A stretch of DNA of 64,000 nt from Pegea sp. RAD2-039 (lineage: Eukaryota; Chordata; Thaliacea; Salpida; Salpidae). The position numbers and the translations under genes are program-made. Below the pieces are notes generated by a model that was not told where the DNA came from, searched no databases, and saw only the letters and a list, made by a program, of their open reading frames with translations. Positions 578-23,500 of the stretch are shown here, piece after piece; the stretch's first letter is position 1, and each line of letters opens with the position of its first letter. The stretch lies in assembly GCA_034620365.1 (NCBI GenBank), contig JAQGEQ010000109.1, forward strand, positions 1-64,000. Direction: 5' to 3'.

Positions 578-3500
578 TTATTTTTTCGAACTTTTTCGTC
601 TTTTTGAAACGCTAGAAGCGCGTCGCTTTTTAATTTGTTCTTTTTTCGTTAAACTTTTTCTTTTTGTTCTATCTTCTTCAAACTGAAAATTTTCAAATCG
701 TTTCAAATAAACAAAAATTTCAAATATTTGTTACCTCGACTTCCGGATCATTGATTTCCGGATCATTATTTACACTTTCTGGTTCATCAATTTCCGGGTT
801 CTCGATGATTATTCTTTTGTTTTCATCTTCATCAGTTGATACTCCCAACTATCAAAATAGTCATAAAATCAGTGAAGTGGAACGAAAGTCAGTGAAGTGG
901 AACGAAAGTCAGTGAAGTGGAACAGAAGTCAGTGAAGTGGAACAGAAGTCAGTGAAGTGGAACGAAGTCAGTGAAGTGGAACGAAGTCAGTGAAGTGGAA
1001 CGAAAGTCAGTGAAGTGGAACAGAAGTCAGTGAAGTGGAACAGAAGTCAGTGAAGTGGAACGAAGTCAGTGAAGTGGAACGAAAATCAGTGAAGTGGAAC
1101 GAAAGTCAGTGAAGTGAAACGAAAATCAGTGAAGTGGAACGAAAGTCAGTGAAGTGAAACGAAGTTAGTGAAGTGAAAGAAACCTGTATTTGTAATTTTC
1201 GAATCATTTCACGATTTTTAATTAGTTCTTCTTCCATTTCAATCATTTTCATTTCAGCATTTTGGGCTCTTTGTTCGGTATCTCTGCAGTGATGATGTCA
1301 TTGGGAGTGTGTTAGTGACGTCATCATCAACTTACACTAATTCTTGTTGTAGATTGTCTACTTTACAGATGGCTTCTACAGCTGATGACGTCACCGCAGA
1401 TTCTGGTAAGATGAAGTCACTAAGAAATTCGTCTGAAATAATTGATTGAACGATGTTGTCATGGGAATCGATTTTTTTAATTCCAATCGGTGTTTTAAGG
1501 ACTTCTAAAAAAGAAAATTTTTAATTTTTATTTTTTTTACTGAATTTTTTTTTACTTTTTCCGATTTCACTTTTTTCCAGAGAATTCTGAAAAATTAAAA
1601 TTTATTTAAATTTTAGGGGATTTTTTTTGGGGTAGGGGGGGGTAGAGATGCTCAATTTACTGACTTTTATATCATCTAATAAAGTCTTCATCACTTCTGA
1701 TCTTTCCTAAAAACTCAACAAAATCTCAAAACTTTTTTTTTTTATTTTTTTTTTTTTTTTGAACCTCAAATTTCATCTCCTGAAACTTCTGCCTCGCTTT
1801 TACATCTCCGAATAAAACCTCTTTGACATCTAACTTCTCTTCTTTCATAATCAAATCCGGTTGTGACTTCGTTTTCCAATCAACCAACGGAAACCTTTCT
1901 TCAAATTGTTTGTTGAACTGAAAATTTGAATGACGTCACAACAGCTTTAATGACGTCACAACAGCTTTGATGACGTCACAACAGCTTTCATGACGTCACA
2001 ACAGCTTTAATGACGTCACAACAGCTTTAATGACGTCACAACAGCTTTGATGACGTCACAACAGCTTTGATGACGTCACTAACAACCAAATTCACCTGGA
2101 TTTTCATCTGATTTTTGTAATTGTTGGTTTCTTGTGAATATTCTTGGTTCGAAACGAAATCTTGATCAGAATCTTTGGAAGATCTAGTTTCGGAACTTTG
2201 AGAACTTTTTGATCCTTTTTTGTGATGAAATCTTTGATTTTCTTTTGAATATTTCGAATTTCTAGTTTTTACGCTCAAACGCTTCGGACTTTTTACACGT
2301 GGTCGAAACTGCGCATGTACAGCAAATTCACGAACCTTATAATTATAACTTTTTTGATTCCTGTTGAAATTTTCAGATGTTTCTCTGATATCTGATTGGC
2401 TTGTCGCATTTTTATTTTTCAAAACGACTTTTTCAATTTTAAACGCTTCTGTTGTATATTTTCCTAACGCCAAGAGCTTTTTCGAACTTTTAATTGTCTC
2501 CGTCGATTGCGATGACGTCATCTCATTTCCAGCTTGATTTGATTGATCTTCCATTTCATTAATCTAAATATTTCTTTGATGACGCTATTGCTCTTTATGA
2601 CGTCATTTATCTATTACCTCGTTTAATATCGTCATCGTATCTGTCATGACGTCATCGCCTACTTTCGCATGAACTAATTTCAAAGCTTGCTTATTTCTTG
2701 ATTTTTCTGAACTAAAACTGGCAATTTTCTGCAAGTTTATTTTTATTAAAAATATAAAAAAAACTGAACTTTTTCTTTTGTTACCTTTAAATTTCGGTTT
2801 TCAGCAGATTTAAAAAAAGAACTCTCACTTTCTGTAACTTTACTTGCAGCATTATCAATTGCAGCATTATCAATTGCAGCATTATCAATTGCAGCATCAT
2901 CAATTGCAGCATTACCAATTGCAGCATTATCAATTGCAGCATTATCAATTGCAGCATTATCAATTGCTGTATTATCAATTGCGGCATTATCAATTGCAGC
3001 ATTATCAATTGCTGTATTATCAATTGCAGCATTAGGAATTACAGCATCATCAATTGCAGCATCACCAATTGCAGCATCACCAATTGCAGCATTACCAATT
3101 GCAGCATTATTAATTGCAGTGTTACCAATTGCAGCGTTACCAATTGCAGCATTATCTATTGCAGCATTACCAATTGCAGCATTATCAATTGCAGCATCAC
3201 CAATTGCAGCATTACCAATTGCAGCATTATTAATTGCAGTGTTACCAATTGCAGCGTTACCAATTGCAACATTATCAATTGCAGCATTATGAATTGCAGC
3301 ATTATCAATTGCAGCATCATCAACTGCAGCATGACCAATTAGAGTAGCAGTACGAGTTGTAGCGGAATCATCAATTGCAAAAGTATCATTAGCTACAACA
3401 GTTTTGATTTTTGAAATATTTTGTTCATGTGAATCATCAGAAACTACAATTGCTTGAGATACTTTTTGTAAATCATCAGTAACTTCTTCTTCTTCTCCAC

Positions 3501-20513: not shown

Positions 20514-23500
20514 ATGGGAAAATTGGATGTAACTTTACTTAGGTACCTTGAGCCTCAAGACCTAAGAGTGTTAACAGCAATAGAAATGGGAATGAAGAAC
20601 CATGAGCTAGTACCAACACCTCTAATTGCTTCAATAGCAAGTTTACCAAGTGGTGGTGCTCACAAAATCACCAGACAACTGTCACATAACAGATTAGTTT
20701 CATATGAAACACATAAAGCTCATGTTGGTTATCGGCTCACTAATAGAGGGTTTGTTTAATATGTAAATCAGTTCTTGTTTTCATGACGTCATCTTCTTAG
20801 ATATGATTATCTTGCTCTTCACGTGTTGACGAGAAAAAATGCAATCTATGCATTTGGAAACCAAATTGGAGTTGGAAAAGAATCAGATATTTATGTTGTC
20901 ACTAATGAAGATAGAGAAGAATTTGCCCTAAAAGTTCACAGGTTAGTGATGGTTGCTGTGGGGTTGCTAGATGGTTGCTGATTGGTTGTTAGATGGTTGG
21001 TGATTAGTTTCTAGATGGCTGCTGTTTGGTTGTTAGATGGTTGCTAATTGGTAGATGGTTGGTGATTGGTTGTCAGTTGGTTGCTGATTAGCTAAAAGAT
21101 GGTTGCTAAATGGTTGCGGGTTGGTTGTTAGATGGTTGCTGATTGGTTAGTGATGGTTGCTAGTTGGTTGGTGATTGGTTAGTAGATGGTTAGTGGTGGT
21201 TGAGTAGATAGGCTGTTTAGTAGATAGTTGGTAATTTGTTGGTAGATGGTTGCTATTTGGTAGATGGTTGCTAAATGGTTATTAAATGGTTGCTGATTGG
21301 TTAGTAAATGGTTGCTGATTGGTTAGTAGATGGTTGCTGATTGGTTGGTAGATAGCTGCTGGTTGGTAGATGAATGCTGATTAGTAGATGGTTGCTGTTT
21401 AGTAGATGGTTGCTGATTGGTTGTTAGTTTGTTCCTGATTGGTTGGTAGATGGTTGCTGGTTAGTAGATGGTTGCTGATTGGTAGATGGTTGCTGGTTGG
21501 TAGATGGTTGCTGATTAGTAGATGGTTGCTGATTGGTAGATGATTGCTGATTGGTAGATGCTTGCTGTTTAGTAGATGGTTGGTGATTGGTTGGTAGATG
21601 GTGGCTGATTGGTTGGTAGATGGTTGCTGATTTGTTGGTAGATAGTTGCTGATTTGTTGGTAGATGGTTGCTGGTTGTTAGATGGTTGGTGATTGGTTGT
21701 TAGATGGTTGTTGATTAGCCGTTAGATGGTTGTTGATTGGTTGGTAGATGGTGGCTGATTGATTGGTAGATGGTTGCTGGTTAGTAGATGGTTGCTGATT
21801 TGTTGGTAGATGGTTGCTGATTGGTAGATGGTTGCTGATTGGTAGATGGTTGCTGTTTAGTAGATAGTTGGTGATTGGTTGGTAGATGGTTGCTGATTAG
21901 TTAGTAGATAGTTGGTGATTGATTGGTAGATGGTTGCTGGCTGTTAGATGGTTGCTGATTGGTTGGTAGATGGTTGCTGATTAGTTGGTAGTTGGTTGCT
22001 GATTTGTTGGTAGATGGTTGCTGGTTGTTAGATGGTTGTTGATTAGCCGATAGATGGTTGTTGATTGGTTGGTAGATGGTGGCTGATTGATTGGTAGATG
22101 GTTGCTGGTTAGTAGATGGTTGCTGATTTGTTGGTAGATGGTTGCTGATTGGTGGATGGTTGCTGTTTAGTAGATAGTTGGTGACTGGTTGGTAGATGGT
22201 TGCTGATTAGTTAGTAGATAGTTGGCGATTGATTGGTAGATGGTTGGTCATTGGTTGGTAGATGGTTGCTGATTAGTTTCTAGATGGCTGCTGTTTGGTT
22301 GGTAGGTGGTTGCTGTTTAGTAGATGGTTGCTGTTTAGTAGATGGTTGGTGATTGGCTGGTAGATGGTTAGTGGTGGTTGCTAGTTGGTTGGTAATTTGT
22401 TGGTAGATGGTTGCTGGTTGTTAGATGGTTGGTGATTGGTTGGTAGATGGTTGCTGGTTGGTAGATGGTTGCTGTTTAGTAGATGGTTGGTGATTGGTTG
22501 GTAGATGGTGGTTGCTAGTTGGTTGGTATTTTGTTGGTAGATGGTTGCTGGTTGTTAGATGGTTGCTGATTAGTTAGTAGATAGTTGGTGATTGATTGGT
22601 AGATGGTTGCTGTTTAGTAGATAGTTGGTGATTGGTTGGTAGATGTTTGCTGATTGGTAGATGGTTGCTGATTAGCTAGTAGATAGTTGGTGATTGGTTG
22701 CTGATTAGTTTCTAGATGGCTGCTGTTTGGTTGGTAGATGGTTGCAGATTGGTAGATGGTTGCTGTTTAGTAGATGGTTGGTGATTGGTTGGTAGATGGT
22801 TAGTGGTGGTTGCTAGTTGGTTGGTAATTTGTTGGTAGATGGTTGCTGTTTAGTAGATGGTTTGTGATTGGTTTGTAGATGGTTGCTGATTAGTTAGTAG
22901 ATAGTTGGTGTTTGATTGGTAGATGGTTGGTGATTGGTTGGTAGATGGTTGCTGATTAGTTTCTAGATGGCTGCTGTTTGGTTGGTAGATGGTTACTGAT
23001 TGGTAGATGGTTGCTGTTTAGTAGATGGTTAGTGGTGGTTGCTAGTTGGTTGGTAATTTGTTGGTAGATGGTTGCTGGTTGTTAGATGGTTGTTGATTGG
23101 CTGGTAAATGGTTGCTGATTGATTGGTAGATGGTTGCTGATTTGTTGGTAGTTGGTTGCTGGTTGTTAGATGGTTAAATTATTGTTTTTTAGATTAGGAC
23201 GTACATCATTTCGTCAATTGAAAAATAAACGTGATTATCATGGCAAAAGGAATATTTCATCTTGGTTGTATTTATCACGAATAGCTGCCAGTCGAGAATT
23301 TGCATTCATGCGTTTGTTGCATAGCAACGGTTTTCCTGTTCCGAAACCAATTGAATGTAATCGTCATTGTGTTGTTATGCAACTGATACCTGGATTTCCT
23401 CTTCATCAAGTAAGTATGTGACGTCATCATCATCGTATCTTATCATCTCTGTTATTATCAGATCGAGAAGCTTGGTGACGTTGAAAAAGTTTATGATGAT

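Follow-up and report, generated by a model that had tools for sequence, protein, structure and literature searches.

In a human interferon-induced gene a minisatellite supplies several splice donors, and introns are reportedly also gained by tandem genomic duplication, in which a duplication around splice signals turns exon sequence into a new intron. The mirages of amphioxus have been described as boundaries between introns and exons that are duplicated in a minisatellite-like manner while splicing seems to proceed normally (PMC3087553 and PMC3902484). Introners, according to the accessible part of their description, are sequence-similar introns that occur across unrelated genes and make new introns (PMC9860276). 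Here we report on a window of 64,000 nucleotides (nt) from one contig of the salp Pegea sp. RAD2-039 (JAQGEQ010000109.1, positions 1 to 64,000; the genome comprises 105.7 Mb in 387 contigs, with a G+C content of about 0.25-0.32 in most sampled stretches), in which eight introns contain extended minisatellite arrays. The 22-bp unit of two of these arrays, termed U22, recurs in many unlinked genes of the genome. The Pegea arrays are placed between mirages and introners, and the surprising part is the existence of a dispersed, sense-oriented minisatellite family that carries donors.

All eight array introns were located at base level, and Tandem Repeats Finder (TRF), with which tandem arrays were called, recovers every array noted in the window. 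The tandem units measure 14-47 bp and are present in 2 to 174 copies, in keeping with the definition of a minisatellite. An initial annotation of the window had placed six of the donors correctly; the remaining two, given as 1168 and 2097, lie at 1183 and 2095. The two distances closing each intron entry below run from donor to array and from array to acceptor, respectively.

849..1183, minus strand: array intron; donor GTTTCT; 20-bp unit, in sense orientation GTTCCACTTCACTGACTTTC; first 16 nt unit-like; 1 nt and 16 nt
1918..2095, minus strand: array intron; donor GTGAAT; 20-bp unit with TGACGTCA; first 16 nt not unit-like; 11 nt and 11 nt
3897..5393, minus strand: array intron; donor GTGAGT, in register with a unit of about 47 bp containing GTAAGT; 0 nt and 29 nt
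5729..6671, minus strand: array intron; donor GTAAGA; 14-bp unit TGATCTTCATCTTC of a dispersed family; 6 nt and 27 nt
7600..9822, minus strand: array intron; donor GTAAAA; 14-bp unit TCCGGCCCTCTACT; array beginning 92 nt inside; 92 nt and 25 nt
10472..10971, minus strand: array intron; donor GTTAGT; 22-bp U22 family, sense-oriented; 8 nt and 72 nt
14616..16880, plus strand: ACP1 array intron of 2,265 nt; donor GTAATC; 19-bp unit TTGTTACTAATGACGTCAC; array beginning 113 nt inside; 113 nt and 7 nt
20514..24441, plus strand: RIOK2 gene, with six exons surrounding its array intron
20942..23192, plus strand: RIOK2 array intron of 2,251 nt; donor GTTAGT; 22-bp U22 family, sense-oriented; 6 nt and 27 nt
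35802..36386, plus strand: U22-like array with no recognisable donor or coding exon adjoining

Some of these distances vary with the way in which the array edge is drawn. The donor distance in RIOK2 becomes -1 once exon bases are counted in, the acceptor distance of the 10971 intron grows to about 118 nt if TRF is used alone, and the 7 nt of the ACP1 intron depends on one unit-like match by the acceptor, with TRF giving about 100 nt. By either measure the 10971 intron falls outside the span of 10-60 nt before the acceptor that had been proposed for the array ends.

That these introns are expanded and yet leave the reading frame intact is borne out by their base-level positions and by the protein alignments of RIOK2 and ACP1. 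The joined exons of RIOK2 align gap-free over 279 residues to the solved RIO2 6fdm, and the 2,251-nt array intron therefore interrupts an otherwise exact reading frame; those of ACP1 align with a solved protein across the array intron with small gaps. Beyond the window, 327 residues of an IDH protein align gap-free across its array, and the RasGEF domain match of a gene in a randomly chosen genome stretch (L009) is continuous through an array intron. For the minus-strand gene of the window, the sole support for joining is the open joined frame returned by a home-made gene finder, and AXDND1, the name proposed for it, found no confirmation, with no Pfam family matched by a piece of 167 residues. 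As judged from the sequence, the arrays are probably spliced cleanly out of the transcripts.

To the eight window introns we added two from L009, two chance finds and 13 further U22 introns, giving a set of 25. The gene finder, trained on nine regions judged genic, takes parts of arrays for exons, and the array introns were therefore set by hand. Unit-likeness was tested for the first 16 intron nt, the last 16 intron nt and the last 10 exon nt, at P<=0.05, with 54 ordinary introns as the control. In 18 of the 25 array introns (12/15 U22 introns and 6/10 introns with other units) the first 16 nt proved to be a variant of the unit, whereas the last 16 nt were unit-like in just 1 of 17; on the exon side unit-like sequence was found in 3/25, with about one expected at the cut-off used. 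The initial annotation had read the donors at 5393, 6671 and 20942 as unit variants, which is confirmed; the same is true of 1183 and 10971, and not of 2095, 9822 and 14616. Donor strength did not differ between array and ordinary introns (Mann-Whitney P=0.40). Donor-like sites are dense in one unit family and absent in several, and they reach about 59 per kb in the 5393 intron, the unit of which repeats the strong donor GTAAGT. The unit of the human interferon-induced minisatellite likewise carries donors, but it represents a single locus.

Among open-licence papers on donor-anchored intronic arrays, only those on the amphioxus mirages came near. Since mirages are named tandem repeats at intron-exon boundaries (accessible text of PMC3087553), the claim that no named system behaves in this way has to be dropped. 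As portrayed there, they consist of repeats of about 10-160 bp in tandem, with the splice site included, occur in several genes per genome and leave splicing apparently undisturbed. The Pegea arrays recall them as tandem repeats found in several genes of one genome, and may also resemble them in taking in splice signals and in leaving splicing undisturbed. The differences are threefold: 1) mirages take in exon sequence, which the Pegea arrays do only in the three cases counted above. 2) Mirages occur at both 5' and 3' boundaries, whereas the Pegea arrays reach the 3' end in a single intron of the 17. 3) One unit common to many genes is a feature of Pegea, for which the same text on mirages offers no corresponding statement.

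The U22 family, a 22-bp unit GTTGGTAGATGGTTGCTGATTG common to the RIOK2 and 10971 introns and carrying a donor-like hexamer, was absent from the initial account of the window. Its pattern has 98 exact matches in the genome, as against none for the reversed control, and these were grouped by hand into 19 places. On 15 of the 16 donor sides that were read, a coding frame ends at a donor and U22 lies behind it in sense orientation, and all 15 copies so placed are sense (P=6e-5). Family support is available for 6/15 of the genes concerned, which encode RIOK2, IDH, an axonemal dynein heavy chain, a matrixin-type protease, a kinase matching the tyrosine-kinase profile and a PX-domain protein. Donors of the form GTTRG, which resemble that of the unit itself, are found in 9/15 U22 introns, compared with 6/61 ordinary introns and 1/10 other array introns (Fisher P=1e-4). 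Furthermore, six of the 19 places fall inside 152 kb of one contig, where 0.03 would be expected (Poisson P=6e-13, for an interval chosen post hoc). The excess of GTTRG, the uniform sense orientation and the local clustering together argue that copying of U22 took place locally and either carried the donor along or was directed onto it. The presence of this family in many unlinked genes is not accounted for by slippage arising independently at each site.

A uniform orientation could also be the work of survival, if arrays arose anywhere and only sense intronic copies persisted, antisense ones being rich in cryptic acceptors. U22 is indeed the one family in which the strands differ markedly in acceptor-like sites: its consensus has none per kb in sense against 42 in antisense, and the corresponding values for the real U22 arrays are 5.4 and 14.9. 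Across 11 unit families, however, sense units are neither depleted nor enriched relative to shuffled ones (P of 0.56 for acceptors, 0.39 for AG and 0.47 for donors); moreover, such a filter predicts common intergenic copies, yet 15/16 of the places read are introns, and it leaves the unit-like donors unexplained. We regard it as very unlikely. Exclusion of AG or of acceptors as a general cause of sense orientation is rejected on the match of the 11 families to shuffled units, and is possible for U22 only.

The history of the host introns is illuminated by paralogs. An IDH paralog has a repeat-free intron of 55 nt at a site and phase identical to those of the 525-nt array intron, and in the nearest dynein paralog an ordinary 78-nt intron matches, in both site and phase, an array intron about 0.2 kb long. 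As both close paralogs carry ordinary introns at these sites, the arrays of these two pairs have expanded or overwritten pre-existing introns. This sets them apart from tandem genomic duplication, which makes new introns from exon, whereas the Pegea arrays enlarge existing ones. It bears likewise on an introner-like gain, under which a U22 array would insert into exons and create introns with its own donor. In terms of the accessible description of introners (PMC9860276), the likeness is evident: U22 occupies 19 hand-grouped places, 15 of them read as introns in many genes, in one orientation and alike from the 5' end of the intron onward, and some introners supply a 5' splice site but use a borrowed 3' site. 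On C10, a different contig, a more distant dynein paralog matches continuously at the site and appears to lack the intron, which may reflect either loss or gain. Introners as so described create new positions, in contrast to the U22 arrays, which sit at existing intron sites of identical phase in both paralog pairs (2/2). The U22 introns further differ in being tandem arrays of variable length with unique 3' tails, which, as compared by eye, are not common to them. Introner-like gain is accordingly an improbable explanation.

A further consideration is the small size of Pegea introns. The 61 ordinary introns predicted in the nine gene regions have a median length of 52 nt, 47 of them being no longer than 70 nt. 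In introns of about 50 nt with their 3' signals spared, any unit of 14-47 nt will therefore lie close to both ends. The array-to-acceptor distance is 7-29 nt in 12/17 introns, which fits a minimal branch-acceptor region. We formulated a null model for 23 arrays, in which the unit is seeded uniformly in a minimal intron with a fixed number of nt spared at the 3' end, and counted arrays lying no more than 3 nt from the donor, of which 10 are observed. The expectation is 5.2 with 10 nt spared (P=0.012), 6.6 with 15 nt (P=0.08, borderline), 9.7 with 20 nt and 15.9 with 25 nt, where the difference is reversed. Distance to the donor by itself thus neither proves nor rules out seeding at the 5' end, the outcome depending on the 3' reserve. 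The U22 family with its 19 places, in contrast, is left unaccounted for by intron geometry.

This affects the single process proposed in the initial annotation, namely tandem duplication initiated specifically at intron 5' ends. Such a process might work through replication or transcription stress at the donor or through R-loops, and would act independently in many introns. Its observational core stands, in that the array often includes or abuts the donor, with the register kept at the 5' end far more often than at the 3' end (the 18/25 and 1/17 given above). A RAPGEF1-like 20-mer, with 16 genome matches that all fall within one array, nonetheless has its donor in register, as such a process would predict, and the donor excess is significant when 10 nt are spared. 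The position itself is no proof, because the minimal-intron null sparing 20 nt reproduces the observed closeness. Arrays that begin 92, 113 and 30 nt inside introns, together with mid-intron arrays outside the 25, also speak against 5' seeding, which leaves a 22-bp unit common to unlinked genes unexplained. We consider it doubtful. Where introns are of about 50 nt, splice signals would dictate the placement of arrays, which offers a general account of intron-filling arrays, and anchoring should be read as mechanism only with caution.

We therefore favour, with some confidence, the view that minimal introns have been inflated by minisatellites bounded by splice signals, U22 having been copied between introns and then expanded. 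Introns of about 50 nt would be filled by minisatellites within limits of about 6 nt on the donor side and about 10-30 nt on that of the branch and acceptor, and bounds of this kind would make arrays look donor-anchored, with a brief stretch of unique sequence at the 3' end; often the donor itself is the unit's first copy, in variant form. U22, with its own donor-like hexamer, would have been copied into existing introns of unrelated genes, in sense where placed and locally clustered, and its arrays would then grow through unequal exchange or slippage. The inflation of pre-existing introns, the recurrence of U22, its orientation and the unit-like donors are observed directly. As for the copying between introns, it may proceed via homology at the 5' splice site, by template switching or ectopic conversion. 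A bolder and distinctly tentative version is that of mobile "half-introns", in which U22 would jump via 5' splice-site homology, overwrite the 5' half of a minimal intron, bring its donor, spread mostly to neighbouring genes and expand. If so, intron 5' ends would constitute a replicating sequence family, and introns would swap sequence with neither a transposase nor new positions. The arrays, for example that of the 5393 intron, would also show, in a natural setting, which donor the spliceosome selects among dozens of near-copies.

Several observations weigh against inflation of introns combined with copying of U22. The U22-like array at 35802 lacks a donor and thereby speaks against strict intron residence, and one further U22 place (C66) shows no donor. 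Donor sides were read at 16/19 places, with three not reached, and at 12/19 only the donor edge expected for a sense copy was fetched, so that antisense copies could be hidden. No Pfam family was found for 5/15 U22 genes where this was tried, and the exons of 4/15 (the minus-strand gene of the window and three unsearched) rest on open frames. Splice sites were picked by hand or by the home-made gene finder. The gene on contig C10 holds a mid-intron array with a 109-bp unit, and a minus-strand intron of another random stretch (L011) has a first array 17 nt away from its donor and a second near the acceptor; both were left out of the set of 25, as were C66, the 35802 array and three short introns that look repeat-like and belong to the 14-bp type (IDH, 155 nt; C17, 91 nt; C6, 54 nt). 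The last three (the C6 intron lying in the C6_1458040 region) are made of TGATCTTC-like pieces. These resemble a branch point with its pyrimidine tract, and it is possible that such introns are early stages of the 14-bp family.

Other units differ widely in their dispersal. The family of the 14-mer TGATCTTCATCTTC is dispersed, the genome holding 355 exact matches of 28 bp, and so is GATCGGATGTTGAT, with 197 matches, those listed including at least four contigs besides that of L009. The ACP1 19-bp unit is present at two places. The RasGEF-domain gene of L009 has two array introns: in the first, a 14-bp unit sets in 9 nt past the donor and stops 11 nt short of the acceptor; the second, which the RasGEF match crosses, has a 20-bp unit that opens with the donor GTAAGATGG. 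L009 is one of 13 random genome stretches containing 11 arrays, of which only those of L009 and L011 were placed, and hence no genome-wide fraction is given.

The window has 17 arrays of at least 100 bp, nine of which, beyond the eight intronic ones, are non-intronic or not placed. One 113-bp unit forms three arrays outside the studied genes (17636-18585, 24982-26171 and 36425-36728), the last of which adjoins a U22-like array. Arrays also lie within predicted exons at 2844-3340 (15 bp), 3599-3746 (15 bp) and 23941-24079 (24 bp), and their units are multiples of three, in contrast to those of the intron arrays. The palindrome TGACGTCA has 130 copies in the window and 27,792 genome-wide, versus 969 for the reversed word; it is found in exons and introns, is confined to some of the stretches sampled, and is encoded in many disordered protein segments (DDVT, MTSS). 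Finally, L011 contains at 1491-1565 and 3064-3178, in opposite orientations, tRNA-like sequence with a probable intron, as recognised by eye.

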